Assembly (NCBI GenBank): GCA_030425645.1
Contig: JAUHZK010000008.1
Location: 62,001-126,000 of the forward strand
DNA length: 64,000 bases
Source of the DNA: Gammaproteobacteria bacterium
GTDB lineage: Bacteria > Pseudomonadota > Gammaproteobacteria > JAPPPA01
Direction: 5' to 3'
Program-made: the position numbers and the translations under genes
Shown: positions 1,108 through 9,986 of the stretch, in pieces
How the letters are laid out: every line of letters starts with the position of its first letter
Numbering within the stretch: the stretch's first letter is position 1
The notes under the pieces: generated by a model
Seen by the model: only the letters and a program-made list of their open reading frames with translations
What the model was told of the DNA's origin: nothing
Databases searched by the model: none

Positions 1108-1335
1108 ATGAGCGACACGCCAAGTATTAATGACCTAGAAAAAAACCTTGATGAACTCAGCAGCTTGGTGGAACGCCTAGAATCAGGTGATCTCAGCCTA
1201 GACGACGCTCTAAAACAATTTGAGCGCGGCATCGCCCTCACCCGCCAAGCGCAAGGCGCATTGCAGGCGGCGGAACAGAAGGTTCAACTGCTGATGGCAA
1301 ACGGCGAGCTCACTAATTTAGACGATGCCGACTAG
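1108..1335 (+). CDS. xseB: Exodeoxyribonuclease VII small subunit
   Basis: Small subunit of ExoVII, which with XseA degrades single-stranded DNA to acid-insoluble oligonucleotides in the cytoplasm. The 75-residue product has the family signature LEKNLDELSSLVERLESGDL followed by SLDDALKQFERG and a helical C-terminus. The ATG at 1108 was chosen rather than the in-frame TTG at 1081 because it gives the usual family length and start (MSDTPSINDLE). ispA begins three bases after the stop, so the two are co-transcribed, the common arrangement in gammaproteobacteria. XseA is not in the window. Confidence 0.95.
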   Translation: MSDTPSINDLEKNLDELSSLVERLESGDLSLDDALKQFERGIALTRQAQGALQAAEQKVQLLMANGELTNLDDAD

Positions 1336-1338
1336 CCA

Positions 1339-2226
1339 ATGACGTTTGAAGACAAGCTAGGCCAATGGCGCCTGCGTATCGAAAACTATCTTCAGCAATA
1401 CTTGCAGCAACAGGATAGCGACTGCGGCAACCTAGCCGAGGCCATGCGCTACGGCACCTTAGGTGGTGGTAAACGGCTACGAGCCGTTCTGGTTTATGCG
1501 ACAGCAGAAACCATTGGCTTGCCGGCTGATGACGTCGACAGCATTGCCGCCGCCATCGAAATGATTCACGCCTATTCGCTGATTCACGATGACCTACCGG
1601 CCATGGATGATGACGACTTGCGCCGTGGCCAGCCCACTACCCATATCCAGTATGGCGACGCCACCGCGATTCTGGCGGGCGACGCGCTGCAAGCAGAGGC
1701 GTTTGCCGTTTTGGTCTCGGCTACCGCCGTTCAAAACAAACCCGACACTATCGCCGCACTAGTGCAACGACTGGCGCTCGCAGCCGGCCAAGCCGGCATG
1801 GTCGGCGGGCAACAGCTCGACTTAGACGCTGAAGGTCAAGCCGTTAGCCTAGAAACGCTAAGCCGTATTCATCAACTCAAGACCGGCGCTTTAATACGCG
1901 CCTGCTGCACCATGCCAGCAGTGCTAGCCGGCCTACCAGCATCAGAAATAGCGCGACTTGATGACTACGCCAACAACATCGGGCTTGCCTTCCAAGTGCA
2001 TGACGACGTTCTCGACATTACCGCTGACACCGCCACGCTAGGCAAACCCCAAGGCGCGGACCTAGAACGCGGCAAAGCCACCTACCCTGCCTTAATGGGC
2101 CTCGACAAGGCCAGCGCTAAGGCCGCCAGCTTACGCGACGAGGCCTGCGCAGCACTCAGCGGTTTCGGTGACAAAGCCCACTGGCTAGAGGAAATAGCCG
2201 ATTTGATGGTTTCTCGTAGCCATTAA
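1339..2226 (+). CDS. ispA: (2E,6E)-farnesyl diphosphate synthase
   Basis: Polyprenyl synthase making farnesyl diphosphate from IPP and DMAPP/GPP, feeding undecaprenyl phosphate and quinone synthesis. 295 residues, the normal IspA length. The first aspartate-rich motif is DDLPAMDDDDLRRG (from residue 84) and the second is HDDVLDIT (about residue 217); GGGKRLR near residue 42 binds IPP. It lies three bases after xseB. dxs, the usual next gene, is separated from it here by the repeat-protein gene at 2405-4153. Confidence 0.96.
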   Translation: MTFEDKLGQWRLRIENYLQQYLQQQDSDCGNLAEAMRYGTLGGGKRLRAVLVYATAETIGLPADDVDSIAAAIEMIHAYSLIHDDLPAMDDDDLRRGQPTTHIQYGDATAILAGDALQAEAFAVLVSATAVQNKPDTIAALVQRLALAAGQAGMVGGQQLDLDAEGQAVSLETLSRIHQLKTGALIRACCTMPAVLAGLPASEIARLDDYANNIGLAFQVHDDVLDITADTATLGKPQGADLERGKATYPALMGLDKASAKAASLRDEACAALSGFGDKAHWLEEIADLMVSRSH

Positions 2227-2404
2227 AGTATTCGGCTAGCGGCGCGCCACCACTTTAAAACTAAGACAAAGCAAATTACCCAGATACTGTTTGTGGTAAA
2301 TTGTTAAAAAAATTCCGGCGCTTGGGGCAACGGAAAAAATAAAAACAGGTTTACGGCTTTAAAAAAAACCAAACGTACAATCATGTGCGAAAGGGAGTTA
2401 GCGT

Positions 2405-4153
2405 ATGCCTAGTTGCACACCCGTCACCCAGCCGTCTAAATTATTCGGTTTAGCTGGCCTGTTTCTCGTTGCCGCGGCGCCCAGCCACGGTGCCATCATT
2501 ACCGACAATCACGGTAATGTCGGTTACACCACCGCAGCAGAATGCGATCAAGCCGTCCATCAAGGCACGGCCAAGTTTTATCAATCGTTTACGCACCAGC
2601 CGCCGCTATTACGCGAAGGCGAAGTCAGCAGCAAAACCCTCAAGCTAGGCGACATTGAGCGCTATAAGCTAGGGGCCTGCGACCTTGGTGCGGGCGCATC
2701 AGGTGGCCGCAGCGGCGTTAGTGCCTCATTACAAGGCAGCTATGTACCGTATAGCCCAGAAATGACAATAAACGCCTACCAAGACAAACATGGCGACACC
2801 GTGCGCATCACCATGATGCAGTGCGACAACAACTTCAGCGGCCCAATGCCACGTGCAGTAGCCGCCGTCAGCAATCCAGAGCCGCAAGCACCCATTACCA
2901 GCAGCGCGCCGAAGCAGGTCAATGAAAACGGCTCGCAATGTTTTGCCGAGGTACTGATTCCGGCGCAATTCGAAACCAAAACCGAGCGAGTCATTAAGGT
3001 ACCCGCCAGTACCCGCTACGAAGTGGTGCCAGCCACTTACAAAACCGTGACTGAAAAAGTCGTTGTTAGGCCCGAATTTACCCGCCAAATTCCGGTTCCA
3101 GCAACCTACAAAACGGTTAGCGAAAAAGTACTCGTTAAACCGGCTAGCATTCGCCAAGAGCCAATTCCGCCGTCGTTCAAAACGGTCGAAGAAAAAGTGC
3201 TAGTTAGACCTGAAAGCACTCGAATCAAGGTCATCCCGGCAACCTATATCACGGAGAAAGCACCACGTATCTCTAAAGAAGCTAGCGTCAAGCTGACTCC
3301 GTACCCGGCCGAGTTTGAGACCGTGACCGAAGAAGTGATGGTTGCCGAAGGCTACAAGATTTGGAAACGCGGTAGCGCGTGGATTGGCCAGGCCATTGAC
3401 GTACGCCCGCTGCAAAGCTTTGAAGTTGATGAATTCGGCCATGTAGACGGCAACAGCGTTTCTCACGACTGGTTGTTCGCCGACAATAGCAATCTAGAAG
3501 ACGACGTCATGTGTTTGGTAGAAGTACCGCCCGAATACAAGACCATTAGCCGCAAAGTGTTGGTCAAACCTGCTGGCGTGCATGAAGAAGAAATTCCAGC
3601 GGAATACTGCGACTGCACCATTACCAAAGTGGATCAACCGGCGCGCCAAGAAGTGATCAAGGTGCCTGCGGAATACCGTACGGTAACGCGACAAGTTGTC
3701 GCCACCGCCGCCAGCACGCGTGACATTGAAATTCCTGCCCAGTACGAGACAGTGACGCGACAAGTTGTCGACACACCCGCCTCGTTGCGCGAAGAAGTAG
3801 TCGCTGCTAAATACGAGACTATTAGTCGCCAAGTGGTCGACACGCCAGCTAGCGTGAAAGAAATTTCGGTACCAGCTGAATACGAAACCTTGAGCTTCAA
3901 AGTTAAAGTTTCAGAGCCGAGCACTGAACGACGCGAGATACTTTGCGAAACCAACGCCACCGACGACAAAATCCGCGAAATTCAGCAAGCTCTGAAAGAC
4001 GCCGGCTTTGACCCAGGCCCAATTGACGGCTTTATTCGTGGCCAAACCATGAAAGCGGTAAACGCCTATCAACAAGCAAATAACCTTCCTGTAGACGGTT
4101 ACTTGAATATTGAAACGGTTAACGCGCTGCTTGGAAACACCACTCAGCCGTAA
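2405..4153 (+). CDS. Exported protein with many V-P-A-x-Y repeats and C-terminal peptidoglycan-binding domain
   Basis: Function unknown. The 582-residue product starts at an ATG preceded by a good Shine-Dalgarno (AGGGAG, 8-base gap) and has a signal peptide of about 30 residues ending near SHGA. The middle holds a dozen or so short repeats of about 17-20 residues with the pattern V/I-P-A-x-Y-x-T-V/I-T/S-x-x-V-V/L-V, followed by P-A-S-x-R. They form two blocks (about residues 180-315 and 375-505) separated by a non-repeat segment rich in Trp and acidic residues (EGYKIWKRGSAWIGQAIDV). Residues about 519-575 form a PG_binding_1 domain (IREIQQALKDAGFDPGPIDG, then VNAYQQANNLPVDG). This suggests a periplasmic or cell-wall-anchored protein with an extended or fibrous repeat region. 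It has its own terminator and sits between ispA and dxs, where no gene is normally found. Confidence 0.8.
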   Translation: MPSCTPVTQPSKLFGLAGLFLVAAAPSHGAIITDNHGNVGYTTAAECDQAVHQGTAKFYQSFTHQPPLLREGEVSSKTLKLGDIERYKLGACDLGAGASGGRSGVSASLQGSYVPYSPEMTINAYQDKHGDTVRITMMQCDNNFSGPMPRAVAAVSNPEPQAPITSSAPKQVNENGSQCFAEVLIPAQFETKTERVIKVPASTRYEVVPATYKTVTEKVVVRPEFTRQIPVPATYKTVSEKVLVKPASIRQEPIPPSFKTVEEKVLVRPESTRIKVIPATYITEKAPRISKEASVKLTPYPAEFETVTEEVMVAEGYKIWKRGSAWIGQAIDVRPLQSFEVDEFGHVDGNSVSHDWLFADNSNLEDDVMCLVEVPPEYKTISRKVLVKPAGVHEEEIPAEYCDCTITKVDQPARQEVIKVPAEYRTVTRQVVATAASTRDIEIPAQYETVTRQVVDTPASLREEVVAAKYETISRQVVDTPASVKEISVPAEYETLSFKVKVSEPSTERREILCETNATDDKIREIQQALKDAGFDPGPIDGFIRGQTMKAVNAYQQANNLPVDGYLNIETVNALLGNTTQP

Positions 4154-4158
4154 GCTCT

Positions 4159-4191
4159 AAGGCTCTCGGCCATCAGCGCCGAGAGCCTTTT
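4159..4191 (+). terminator. Rho-independent terminator after the repeat protein
   Basis: A perfect 10-bp stem GGCTCTCGGC / GCCGAGAGCC (4161-4170 with 4178-4187) has a 7-base loop, is extended by A-T pairs and is followed by TTTT. It lies six bases after the stop at 4153. Confidence 0.9.
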
Positions 4192-4292
4192 CCCGCTTAT
4201 TCAACAAGCGACATCGTCAGCGCGGTCTTATCTAGGCCGCGCTTTAGGTTCAACCAGCATCCGAAACGTCCAGAAGACGCCAAATTTGGCTC

Positions 4293-4313
4293 GGGCGCGC
4301 TATAATCGCGCCC
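4293..4313 (+). promoter_or_regulatory. Candidate dxs promoter: TATAAT flanked by a GC inverted repeat
   Basis: TATAAT at 4301-4306 is enclosed by the inverted repeat GGGCGCG (4293-4299) / CGCGCCC (4307-4313), about 40 bases before the dxs ATG and just after the preceding terminator. The sequence after the -10 is entirely G/C, which in proteobacteria is typical of promoters under ppGpp control (family knowledge). No convincing -35 is visible. Confidence 0.55.
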
Positions 4314-4346
4314 CCTTTTTCGTGGCGCGCCTACCATCGCTAAAAG

Positions 4347-6215
4347 ATGAGTCATTTCGAAACCAATCCAAGCTGGCCTTTGCTGGAGTGTATTAACACC
4401 CCCGCCGACCTGCGCGCGCTGCCTGAAGCAGACGTCGAACAGGTTGCCAACGAGCTGCGCAGCTATTTGATTCATACGCTATCGGGCTGCGGCGGCCACT
4501 TTGCTGCAGGTTTAGGCACGGTCGAGCTGACCACCGCGCTACATTACGTCTTCAACACACCAGACGACAGACTGGTATGGGACGTAGGTCACCAAGCCTA
4601 TCCGCACAAAATTCTAACGGGGCGTCGCGACGAGCTCGCTACCATTCGCCAAAAAGACGGGCTGTCGCCATTCCCAAAACGCAAAGAAAGTGAATATGAC
4701 ACTTTTGGCGTAGGGCATAGCAGCACCAGCATCAGCGCCGCCCTAGGCATGGCACTTGCGGCCAAAGCCCAAGGGCTAGACCGCAAAGCTGTGGCTGTTA
4801 TTGGTGACGGCGCAATGACCGCCGGCATGGCTTTCGAAGCGCTCAACCATGGCGGCCATTTAAAAGCCGATATGTTGGTTATTCTGAACGACAACGACAT
4901 GTCTATTTCAGAGAACGTTGGCGCACTTAATAGCTATTTTGCGCGGTTGCTGTCGGGCAAAAATTACAATCAACTACGCGAAGGCGGCAAAAAGGTACTG
5001 GCGCAAATGCCTGCCGCTTGGGAATGGGCACGCAAGTCAGAAGAGTTTGCCAAGGGCATGATGACTCCCGGCGTGCTGTTCGAAGAAATGGGTTGGAACT
5101 ATATCGGGCCGATAGATGGTCACGACGTCAACAACCTCGTAAAAACGCTAAAAAATCTGCGCAAACTTAAAGGCCCTCAGTTCCTGCATATCATTACCCA
5201 AAAAGGTAAGGGCTATGCACCCGCTGAGGCCGACCCGATCAAGTGGCACGGGGTTGGAAAATTTGACCCACCCAGCGGTGCCATGGCCGCCAAAACTAGC
5301 GGCGGCAAAAGTTACACCAGCGTTTTTTCAGATTGGTTAGTGGATATTGCCGAACAAGATCCGCGTGTTGTAGGCATTACCCCCGCCATGCGCGAAGGCT
5401 CGGGGCTGGTAGAGTTTTCTCAACGCTATCCAGAGCGTTATCACGATGTCGCCATTGCTGAACAACATGCAGTAACACTGGGTGCAGGCATGGCATGCGA
5501 CGGTTTAAAACCCGTTGTCGCTATTTACTCAACATTTTTACAACGCGGCTATGACCAACTGGTGCATGACGTTGCGGTGCAAAATTTGCCGGTAATCTTT
5601 GCGATTGATCGTGCCGGCGTCGTTGGTCCCGATGGCCCCACCCACGCTGGCAGCTTTGATCTAAGCTTTATGCGCTGCCTGCCCAATATGGTGATTATGG
5701 CGCCCGCCAACGAAGACGAAACGCGGCAGATGCTCTACACCGCGTGGACCTTAGATTGCCCAACAGCGGTGCGCTACCCACGTGGTAACGGCCCCGGTGT
5801 TGATGTCCAAAAGACCATGACTGCACTGCCAGTCGGCAAGGCTAAGCCCCTGCGCCAAGGCCAAAAAGTCGCTATTTTGAATTTTGGCGCCTTGCTACAT
5901 GAGTGCGAGCCAGTAGCAGAAGCTTTAGACGCCAGCTTGGTCGATATGCGCTTTGTGAAGCCGCTGGATACCGCACTACTTGAAAAAATCGCCGCTGACC
6001 ACCAATTAGTCGTTACCGTTGAAGACAATGCGGTGACAGGTGGTGCTGGCAGTGCAGTCAATGAATATTTGGCTAACACAGGCCATACTGTCGAATTATT
6101 AAACCTAGGCTTGCCCGATGTGTACTTAGAACACGGCAGCCGTGAGCAACTTTTGGAAGAAGCCGGCCTTAACAGCCAACTGATCCAACAAAGCATCGAA
6201 GCACGCCTTAGTTAA
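4347..6215 (+). CDS. dxs: 1-deoxy-D-xylulose-5-phosphate synthase
   Basis: Thiamine-diphosphate enzyme condensing pyruvate and glyceraldehyde 3-phosphate, the first step of the MEP pathway. 622 residues, the normal length. The N-terminus contains [20 protein letters not shown] and [12 protein letters not shown]; the ThDP motif is [15 protein letters not shown] (GDG at residues 153-155) leading to NDNDMSIS. The transketolase pyrimidine domain includes the conserved [12 protein letters not shown], and the C-terminus has the transketolase-C fold. The ATG at 4347 follows the strong -10 noted above. folE2 follows after 42 bases on the same strand. With IspA upstream it supplies isoprenoid precursors. 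Confidence 0.97.
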
Positions 6216-7400: not shown

Positions 7401-9986
7401 ATGTTTTTCTCACCCAAGGGGCAAGAAGCCCCTAATAATCGCGTGCGCGTATTAGTCTGCGCGCTAAGTATTACTATGTCTTTAGTCGCCTGCGGCGGTG
7501 GCGGTGGCGGTGGCGGTGGTAGCGGAGGCAGCAGCAGCGGCGACAGCAATGCCGCAGCACCCACACCGAGTGCACCCAAGCCATCAGAGCCTGATACCGG
7601 GCCGACAACCGGCACACCCACCACGGTTGCAGAGCCAGCCCCAGATCAGCGCGCCAGCATCCACCTACCCAGTGGCTTTTCCGGTGACGGCGAAAACATG
7701 AGCCTGGACCCGCTGCGCCAGAATGAAGACAACGATAGCGTTTACGGTGCCTATGCTGTCGCTACGCATTCCACAGCCGTGGTTGCCGGTGCCGTGACCC
7801 GTTTCGACGATGATAGAAGAGACTTTTTTCAGGCCCAGCTAAGCCGCGGAACCATCATTCGCAGCGTCGCCAGTACAGATACTATTGATATCAGCGATGC
7901 CGATATGTATTTGTATGATGAACATCTCAATCTCATTAATGCCAGTCTCAATAGCACCGCAACGGAATCACTGACGGTCCCCAACGACGGCAACTACTAT
8001 ATTGAGATCGCGCACCATCACGGCGACCGCGCCAAATACAACCTGAGTTTCGACAGTAGCAGCACAAGCAACTACGACCATCCACTGACGCTAAACGGCA
8101 ACATCATCGTCGGCGAATTCATGGTCGCAGGCAGCTCACTACTGCAGTTGCATCAATTCGGACTATTAGGACAACTCCAGCGCGGGCACTTAGGGCCAGC
8201 TCAGCTACTAAAAATTGCCAATCCCGCCGCACTATTAGCGAGCTTGCACTCGCCTCTTACAGCTAGCGACGATTACCTACGCCGCCGACAACTCATCACC
8301 GACAGCACTCAACGCGCGCGCTACGACAGCATATTTTTAGCCCGCGCATTAACTCAGCTATTGGGAGGGATTGTTGAACCCAATATCCGCCTCGGCCTTA
8401 GCAGCCTAGAAACAAACGACAGCCAAGCAAGTCAGCAATGGTCACTGGAACAGATTGGCGTCAACAGTGCCTGGCAAACCACCAGCGGCACTAACAACGT
8501 CCACGTAGCGGTGATTGATACCGGCTTCTTGCTTGACCACCGTGACCTAAAAGACCGCTTTACTACCGGCTGGAATTACATTGATGACAACAACGACCCT
8601 GGCGCCACCGCAGAACTCAGACTGCAGCACGGCACCCATGTTGCCGGCATTATCGCTGCCGAACGTAACAACGGCTTCGACATTGCCGGCATTGCCCCAA
8701 ATATCAAAATCATTCCCATTAAGGTGATGAGACCGGAATGCCTGTGCGGTTCTCTTTATGACGCCTTGCAGGGCATTCTATGGGCAGCTGGCTTGGACAA
8801 CAGTGCTGGCACCAAAGCCGAGATTGCCGCCAAAATTATCAACCTAAGCATCGACCTGCCGACATCGCAGTCACAGTTTTTAAGCAACACCATCAATGCA
8901 GCACGCGAAGCCGGCAGCGTGGTGGTGTGGGCGGCTGGCAACAACCGCACTCGGCTTGATGTGCCAGCACACCACAGCCTGAAAACACCGGGCTTGCTCA
9001 TCACTGCCGCCTCAGGCCTATATGGCAAGCTTGCTAACTATTCCAACTACGGTAACGCCATTGACCTGATTGCGCCCGGCGGCGACAGTCAAACCAGCAA
9101 CGGCGGCCTCCGCATTCGGAGCCTTAGCGGCGGCTTAAGCAGCACCGGCGAATGGATTTATAACAGCAGCAATATGCAAGGCACCTCACAGGCGGCACCT
9201 CATGTTGCGGGCACGCTAGCTCTCGCCGCTAGCGTCTGGCCAAACTTTTCACCCGATGCCGTCGAGTCTCTGCTGAATGCCGGTACCTTAACTCAAGACA
9301 CCGGCATAGTTGGCCCAGACAGCCACCACGGCAACGGCCGCATCGATGCTGCCAAAACCGTCCAAGCCGCTAACCAAGAATCCTCACTGAACTCGCCCCG
9401 CACACAACTCAACGCGCAACCAAGCGAGTTGAACTTCGGCGGTAGCTTCCAAGAGCTAAGTCTGCATATCGAAGCCAACGTCGCTCAAGTGGCTCCGTTA
9501 TCAGTTAGCTTCAAATCCGAAGGCCTAACCGTTACGGCAACGGATACAGATCAGTCAGGCCTAGGCGAATGGCGGATTGCACTGAACCGAAATACGCTGG
9601 GGAACGATCTCTACCAAGGCGTAGTTATTTTTAAGAGCGGCGAACGCAAGCTTTATGTACCCGTGGCGGCTTACAACGACTCCTACCTGGTGCGCAGCAC
9701 CGGCGTCTCAAAAATGCTGGTTGAGTTCCTCGATCCCTCGACGCAGAAACGCTTACACCATCTTGAAGCCGAACTTACCGGGCCACGCAGTTTTCACTTT
9801 GATAGTGAAGGCGTCCCGGCAGGCGACTACATTGTCAGGGCCTCGTCGGACTTAGACAACAACGGCCGCTACTGTGAAATTGGTGAATTTTGCGGCTACC
9901 TAGAAGACAACCCCAACCGTATTAGTCGCGTGCAAAACAGTGGGAGTCTGAACGGACAAGACATCAGGCTTGAGTTGCTGAGGTAA
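7401..9986 (+). CDS. Subtilisin-like S8 serine peptidase, lipoprotein
   Basis: Predicted secreted, lipid-anchored serine endopeptidase of 861 residues. The signal peptide ends in a lipobox (SLVAC) followed by a run of glycines and a Ser/Pro-rich linker. Residues about 85-215 form a beta-rich, PPC-like segment (DADMYLYDEHLNLI, then NDGNYYIEIAHH). The S8 domain has the catalytic triad Asp373 (VIDTGF), His410 (HGTHVAGI) and Ser596 (GTSQAAPHVAG), so it should be active. The C-terminus ends in a DLDNNGRYCEIGEFCGYL segment shared with the paralogue. The AGGG at 7388-7391 gives a reasonable Shine-Dalgarno. The protein coded at 22580-25144 has the same architecture. The substrate is unknown. Confidence 0.92.
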   Translation: MFFSPKGQEAPNNRVRVLVCALSITMSLVACGGGGGGGGGSGGSSSGDSNAAAPTPSAPKPSEPDTGPTTGTPTTVAEPAPDQRASIHLPSGFSGDGENMSLDPLRQNEDNDSVYGAYAVATHSTAVVAGAVTRFDDDRRDFFQAQLSRGTIIRSVASTDTIDISDADMYLYDEHLNLINASLNSTATESLTVPNDGNYYIEIAHHHGDRAKYNLSFDSSSTSNYDHPLTLNGNIIVGEFMVAGSSLLQLHQFGLLGQLQRGHLGPAQLLKIANPAALLASLHSPLTASDDYLRRRQLITDSTQRARYDSIFLARALTQLLGGIVEPNIRLGLSSLETNDSQASQQWSLEQIGVNSAWQTTSGTNNVHVAVIDTGFLLDHRDLKDRFTTGWNYIDDNNDPGATAELRLQHGTHVAGIIAAERNNGFDIAGIAPNIKIIPIKVMRPECLCGSLYDALQGILWAAGLDNSAGTKAEIAAKIINLSIDLPTSQSQFLSNTINAAREAGSVVVWAAGNNRTRLDVPAHHSLKTPGLLITAASGLYGKLANYSNYGNAIDLIAPGGDSQTSNGGLRIRSLSGGLSSTGEWIYNSSNMQGTSQAAPHVAGTLALAASVWPNFSPDAVESLLNAGTLTQDTGIVGPDSHHGNGRIDAAKTVQAANQESSLNSPRTQLNAQPSELNFGGSFQELSLHIEANVAQVAPLSVSFKSEGLTVTATDTDQSGLGEWRIALNRNTLGNDLYQGVVIFKSGERKLYVPVAAYNDSYLVRSTGVSKMLVEFLDPSTQKRLHHLEAELTGPRSFHFDSEGVPAGDYIVRASSDLDNNGRYCEIGEFCGYLEDNPNRISRVQNSGSLNGQDIRLELLR

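Follow-up and report, generated by a model that had tools for sequence, protein, structure and literature searches.

Locus and gene neighborhood

The window, i.e., the whole 64,000-nucleotide stretch of gammaproteobacterial DNA analyzed here, carries on its + strand xseB, ispA (1339–2226), the open reading frame (ORF) that is the subject of this study, dxs (4347–6215), and a folE2-like gene, all named by eye from their translations. Features of the ORF and its flanks are collected in Table 1. At 7401–9986, the window also holds an ORF resembling by eye an S8-type protease, with nine Gly behind a lipobox-like Cys close to the start.

Table 1. The ORF between ispA and dxs, its flanking signals, and the parts of its product (window coordinates).
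Feature	Position	Strand	Basis
Ribosome-binding-like AAGGGAG	2391..2397	+	Sequence inspection
ORF, 582 aa	2405..4153	+	ORF translation; full-length relatives exist
Signal-peptide-like N-terminus, residues 1–30, without lipobox Cys	2405..2494	+	By eye
N-terminal domain, residues 31–150, with Cys 47, 92, and 140	2495..2854	+	Conserved in 5 aligned rows
Cys179, invariant start of the A half	2939..2941	+	Invariant in 31 rows
A half, six 23-residue units, residues 186–323, Trp320 in the last	2960..3373	+	Repeat profile
Linker, residues 324–374, with Trp326, Trp356, and Cys370; predicted hairpin tip	3374..3526	+	Alignment; tip role from model
B half, six 23-residue units, residues 375–512	3527..3940	+	Repeat profile
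Cys514, invariant, closing the B half; predicted to lie next to Cys179	3944..3946	+	Alignment, model
PG_binding_1 domain, residues 520–575	3962..4129	+	Pfam, E 2.8e-16
Terminator-like hairpin	4159..4189	+	-28.2 kcal/mol, z -6.7; absent from consensus-scan list
TATAAT upstream of dxs, also in congener G001	4301..4306	+	Sequence comparison; scan called no promoter

A sequence-only reading of this DNA had regarded the ORF as a late insertion between ispA and dxs, and a survey of 15 genomes, in which gaps are distances between matches, supports it. Both genes lie on one contig in 11 genomes besides the window's own (the congener G001 included), with a gap of 22–201 bp in 10 of the 11, and on separate contigs in three. 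G001 encodes a dxs product 95% identical to that of the window; its ispA and dxs matches are 83 bp apart on the same contig with no gene between them, and its assembly (88% complete) yielded no full-length copy of the gene, only two other family members, and no match to the N-terminal domain. The reading that fits these comparisons best is that the gene may have arrived between ispA and dxs by insertion after horizontal transfer; alternatively, it may have been lost in G001. A copy in Spongiibacter pelagi stands elsewhere, near genes that look by eye like panC and pgi. Genome G082 has a different insert of 2.1 kb in the gap (L083:2194-4073), comprising two ORFs (280 and 291 aa) that run opposite to ispA and dxs, one of which resembles by eye a membrane fatty-acid hydroxylase. 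The ispA of G001 (L082:1571-2474) matches in two overlapping frames, reflecting a frameshift or an assembly error. As for the source of the gene, a mobile-element or phage origin was rejected: a plasmid search at 1e-8 gave no match, phage matches (2 records) are confined to the PG_binding_1 part, and no viral contig was found with the single peptide pattern used.

The gene had also been credited with a strong terminator of its own. The hairpin downstream is indeed strong by free energy and z-score (Table 1), although a consensus scan does not list it as a terminator. A separate promoter for dxs is weakly suggested by TATAATCGCGCCCC, which stands upstream of dxs in both the window and G001 and, being shared, falls to the dxs side of the inserted gene. 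The consensus scan marks the window copy of this stretch as terminator-like, and a promoter scan across 1300–4500 found no sigma-70-like site.

Protein layout and the 23-residue repeat

By eye, the N-terminus bears out the earlier call of an exported protein, in that it looks like a signal peptide; no lipobox Cys was seen after it. At the other end, the PG_binding_1 domain (PF01471) noticed in the same reading is confirmed with 59.9 bits against a cut-off of 23, and is the sole Pfam match above cut-off in the protein. PG_binding_2, over the same part, and DUF4222 stay below theirs, OmpA (PF00691) is absent at E up to 1, and the NCBIfam model HxsA (TIGR03979) reaches 40 bits against a cut-off of 121.65. 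No Pfam or NCBIfam model exceeds its cut-off over the repeats, and the remark that no named family has this repeat arrangement holds for the window protein in both collections.

About a dozen near-repeats of some 18 residues had been noticed between these ends; the number stands and the length does not. Self-match offsets peak at 23, 46, 69, and 92 residues (377 self-matching windows vs. 0–3 in each of 20 shuffles), and the offset histogram rules out an 18-residue period. A repeat profile finds 12 tandem units, six in the A half and six in the B half (Table 1). The motifs V-P-A-x-Y-x-T-V and V-V-P-A-S-x-R are both present, as two parts of one unit rather than as separate motifs. The commonest residues per unit, from 508 units in 57 sequences, read PATYKTVTERVLVKPASTRLIVI, with P1, A2, Y4, T6, V11, and A16 as the strongest positions. 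Tandem Repeats Finder reported no repeat in the DNA, where one 18-nt pair was found, so the DNA copies have diverged. What had been called a Trp-rich domain between the blocks is actually a linker with two Trp, and Trp320 closes the A half.

Family distribution and C-terminal domains

A search of a class sample at E up to 0.001 hit 82 of 369 genomes, some via PG_binding_1 alone; matches inside the repeats, as assessed by reading, come from ~45 genomes among the matches listed. A 6+6 member, L023, used as query, matched 11 of 398 genomes of the phylum at 1e-12, and the A half of L026, from an Ignavibacteria genome, matched 13 of 395 genomes of that genome's phylum at 1e-10, both counts including the genome at the center of the sample. 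Family members come both from Pseudomonadota and from the phylum to which this Ignavibacteria genome belongs. For the family analysis, 57 distinct sequences were kept, and five weaker relatives fell below the filter. Cys179, Cys370, and Cys514 are invariant across 31 aligned rows, and PG_binding_1 is found in all 31 aligned members. The window protein has these three Cys, exact 23-residue units, and the layout 6+6. A literature search on the motifs, on 23-residue repeats, on repeats joined to PG_binding_1, and on matched repeats or β-ribbons, with most subscription journals and bioRxiv outside it, returned nothing about the family; the repeat family is widespread and apparently undescribed.

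The ends of the protein vary. A lipobox-like Cys was seen by eye in many relatives. OmpA (PF00691) was found in five of ten relatives scanned and is C-terminal in four of the ten, which, judged from sequence, would be one wall-binding domain swapped for another. In L130, an OmpA domain lies inside the B half and PG_binding_1 at the C-terminus; with OmpA between B units 7 and 8 (L130:1474-3912), this one protein has two wall-binding domains. The N-terminal domain of the window protein was matched in two of 369 class genomes, its own included, and recurs in scattered relatives (60% identity in G039, 56% in Spongiibacter pelagi, and 36% in the best segment of two Limnohabitans copies). Two more family members are encoded in the window's own genome, L020 with the layout 4+4 and the diverged L030; G001 has a counterpart of each. 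In L071, L077, L013, L029, and L030, an extra Cys stands near the end of the A half, shortly ahead of the one with which the B half begins, as if a second disulfide closed the tip in these members. Two family matches of equal score in one genome (G185:C1:869526-869930 and 1089392-1089796) each contain an internal TGA.

Equal numbers of units in both halves

Neither the breadth of the family nor the relation between its two blocks of repeats had been foreseen: we found two matched halves with equal numbers of units instead of independent blocks. Lengths were measured between anchor residues without a repeat model, from a Cys to a Trp in the A half (23n+3 residues) and from one Cys to another in the B half (23n+6). 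The halves are equal in 48 of the 57 sequences (38 by script and 10 by eye), ranging from 3+3 to 22+22, or arranged as 3+3|3+3. The other nine are uncountable, some cut by the end of the contig or locus and others missing an anchor residue. The sequences equal by script comprise 26 two-block proteins, i.e., 4+4 (21), 6+6 (4), and 3+3 (1), and 12 four-block proteins (3+3|3+3); the remainder is 0 in all of the two-block proteins except L010 and L020, where it is +1. Those equal by eye are 4+4 (3), 10+10 (2), 11+11 (2), 12+12 (2), and 22+22 (1). They include four that the script scored as unequal, namely, L003 (8+4), L022 and L024 (10+12), and L026 (22+27), owing to inserts or to a wrong Cys (the lipobox Cys in L003), and these were reset by eye to 4+4, 10+10, and 22+22; the count of 22+22 for L026 rests on 20 clear B units plus two irregular ones. 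In L130, the twelve A units are matched by seven B units before the inserted OmpA domain and five after it. Among the five relatives below the filter, L025, L012, and L013 have equal halves, and L029 and L030 are ambiguous between 4+4 and 3+4.

Eight layouts occur among 44 proteins, which takes a minimum of 7 changes; on a tree made from the end units and C-terminal domains, and thus partly repeat-based, 12 layout changes are needed. These numbers bear on the view that the halves are unpaired, forming a flexible or adhesin-like repeat stalk with equal numbers due to common descent. Repeat stalks are common and many of the n=4 members are related, as such a stalk would have it, but halves that stay equal in 48 countable sequences and through at least 7 changes among eight layouts make this explanation highly improbable.

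Evidence for probable pairing of A and B units

Position 9 of the unit distinguishes the two halves: it is acidic in 80% of A units and basic in 69% of B units (103 each, from 24 proteins). In the distant member L026, Glu occupies it in 20 of 22 A units and Lys or Arg in 19 of 20 regular B units, and in the four-block members, blocks 1 and 2 are A-type at this position and blocks 3 and 4 B-type. When units of 44 proteins are paired antiparallel, none of the 267 facing pairs is like-charged at position 9, 155 are acid–base, and 4 are base–acid; parallel pairing gives 12 like-charged pairs. Net-charge complementarity of whole halves was considered and is not general, many members having two positive halves.

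We assessed charge coupling by permuting units jointly within each architecture, which allows for kinship inside it. The pair of positions (9,9) gave p 0.001 and the register i+j=18 gave p 0.0005, the lowest attainable, with i+j=16 nearly as low; the strong charge pairs (14,3) and (8,8) fall off register 18. A plain scan of 170 registers, made without permutation, has its two charge minima at 17 and 18, with register 87 third. Register -6, at a shift of one unit, where a second ribbon neighbor would make a coil contact, is fourth lowest in the plain scan; in the permutation test, i+j=17 at the one-unit shift is outside the best three.

The irregularity of units is also correlated between the halves. 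Comparing A_i with B_(n+1-i) in nine proteins (91 pairs) gave a pooled rank r of 0.49 (p 0.002), positive in eight of the nine and -0.26 in the close relative L002; L130 gave 0.26, and parallel pairing -0.07. After trimming one unit per end, the correlation is 0.41 (p 0.003), and after trimming two, 0.27 (p 0.043), at which point the pairing shifted by two also gives 0.27 (p 0.060). Parallel and shifted pairings were therefore set aside as weaker, save for this shift by two after trimming and for one shifted antiparallel pairing in the charge test, diagonal 26 (p 0.0025).

Structure models and fold searches

AlphaFold models were built from alignments of six sequences, one, of low confidence, for the full-length window protein (pLDDT 51.7, pTM 0.27) and one for a 3+3 fragment around the tip of L023 (pLDDT 84.3, pTM 0.33). 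In the former, strand boundaries mirror about the residue sum 691 with 98.6% agreement (median over sums, 54.9%), and in the latter about 171 with 100% (median, 62.2%); both sums equal register 17 in unit positions. Mirror sums shifted by a unit also score, though lower (0.77 and 0.88), as expected from the common period of 23 in the two halves. The mirror sum places residue 179 opposite 512, next to Cys514, and residue 370 opposite 321, next to Trp320. Such mirroring would describe an antiparallel ribbon of two strands, whose Pro-Ala steps face each other and mark off segments of 12 and 7 residues. Five proteins are shared between these alignments and the 44 of the charge scan, so the two lines of evidence are largely, though not wholly, independent. 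Foldseek returned no match at E 0.001 or better. VIA-align Z scores were at most 3.3, the highest belonging to a phage collar and tail complex, with long hairpins of pore stems among the weak matches (Z up to 3.1).

Equal unit numbers and antiparallel facing units would be expected just as well if the halves packed face to face as two β-sheets of equal length, i.e., as a long sandwich rather than one ribbon. The coupling, however, lies near one i+j register, as for neighboring strands, and both models mirror strand for strand; we consider the sandwich unlikely, and the single ribbon the better reading.

The unit might otherwise be a divergent leucine-rich repeat of the BspA type, wound into an ordinary solenoid in which equal numbers are incidental. 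The BspA-type unit also has 23 residues, and several of its hydrophobic positions and its Pro agree with the unit described here. L026 passes the Pfam cut-offs of DUF7583 and of LRR_5 (104.6 bits vs. 27.7), scoring 84.5 bits against LRR_5 with its B half alone and 30.7 with its A half; this Ignavibacteria 22+22 protein (L026:2972-6610) may carry a BspA-like leucine-rich annotation. Against this, L131 and L021 are below the LRR_5 cut-off, and at E up to 1 the model (PF13306) has no match in the window protein, in either of its halves, or in either half of L023. The A half of L026 alone passes the cut-offs of unrelated models too (DUF7583, Dna2_Rift, and Cohesin_HEAT), indicating that its repetitive sequence attracts chance matches, and we take the match of the highly regular L026 repeats to LRR_5 and DUF7583 for a likeness in period and composition. 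A unit with predicted strands of 12 and 7 residues is unlike a leucine-rich repeat, and a solenoid would predict neither equal halves nor antiparallel charge coupling. A leucine-rich solenoid thus has very little probability in our judgment, and the antiparallel ribbon is carried forward below.

Proposed fold and role

Taken together, the data make it likely that these proteins form an intramolecular antiparallel β-ribbon with the linker at its tip and a peptidoglycan anchor, which would serve the cell envelope as strut or spacer. The protein would be exported to the periplasm, as its signal-like N-terminus suggests, and its two repeat blocks would fold together as one long ribbon, a reading drawn from the family statistics and the predicted models. 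Unit A_i would face B_(n+1-i), setting the acids at position 9 of A against the bases at position 9 of B. With the Pro-Ala steps of the two strands opposite each other, kinking or coiling of the ribbon is probable at these points. The base would bring together the N- and C-terminal domains, with a possible bond between Cys179 and Cys514, and residues 324–374 would make up the tip. PG_binding_1, by what is known of its family, is predicted to anchor the base to peptidoglycan. Wall-binding domains, export signals, and a long ribbon together suggest a strut or spacer of the envelope that ends in a tip and whose length would be set by the number of units, and the tip or the rare N-terminal domain may be presented to a partner; function is the weakest step of this proposal. 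By our own estimates, a unit would add ~7 nm to a straight ribbon and ~1 nm to a coil, and at ~1 nm per unit, a periplasm would more easily accommodate 6 to 22 units in coiled form.

More tentatively, we raise the possibility that this is a new architecture found in more than one phylum, in which two far-apart repeat arrays of a single chain are the complementary strands of a giant antiparallel ribbon, probably coiled, their copies change together, and the whole acts as an adjustable ruler between peptidoglycan and envelope. Tandem arrays usually vary freely in copy number; here, the count stays equal in two arrays on either side of a linker, through eight layouts. From the sequence alone, the equal-number rule yields a predicted fold, and it raises the question of how copies enter both arrays. 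If the protein is a spacer, the natural members from 3+3 to 22+22 would be a length series for the setting of envelope distance. Recognition of the family would also name proteins in which only a wall-binding domain is recognized at present, or which look leucine-rich-repeat-like in a profile search.

Comparison with known systems

A wall-anchored envelope protein is of a known kind; the fold is possibly new. Stems of β-pores and other long hairpins give weak matches to the fragment model (Z 2.1–3.3), but these Z scores are too low to speak for more than a common arrangement, and no sequence relation was seen. HxsA (TIGR03979) and the N-terminal domain of SleB align with the C-terminal PG_binding_1 part (structure 6tci), whereas the score is far under the NCBIfam cut-offs and the match covers that part and not the repeats. 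BspA-type leucine-rich repeats (LRR_5) share a similar period, and one relative, L026, exceeds their Pfam cut-off; unlike them, the window protein has no match to the model, is divided into two matched halves, and has other predicted strands.

The closest parallels in role are the tethers of the Pal/OmpA-domain and Lpp types. Like these, members of the repeat family appear to be exported, carry a C-terminal wall-binding domain (PG_binding_1 or OmpA), and in many relatives have a lipobox-like Cys. Lpp affects envelope spacing (PMC5736177), and the repeat family may do so as well. The spacers themselves differ: Lpp forms a coiled coil and Pal consists of a disordered stretch and a domain (PMC8824477, PMC12826056), whereas that of the repeat family is a predicted β-ribbon with matched repeats.
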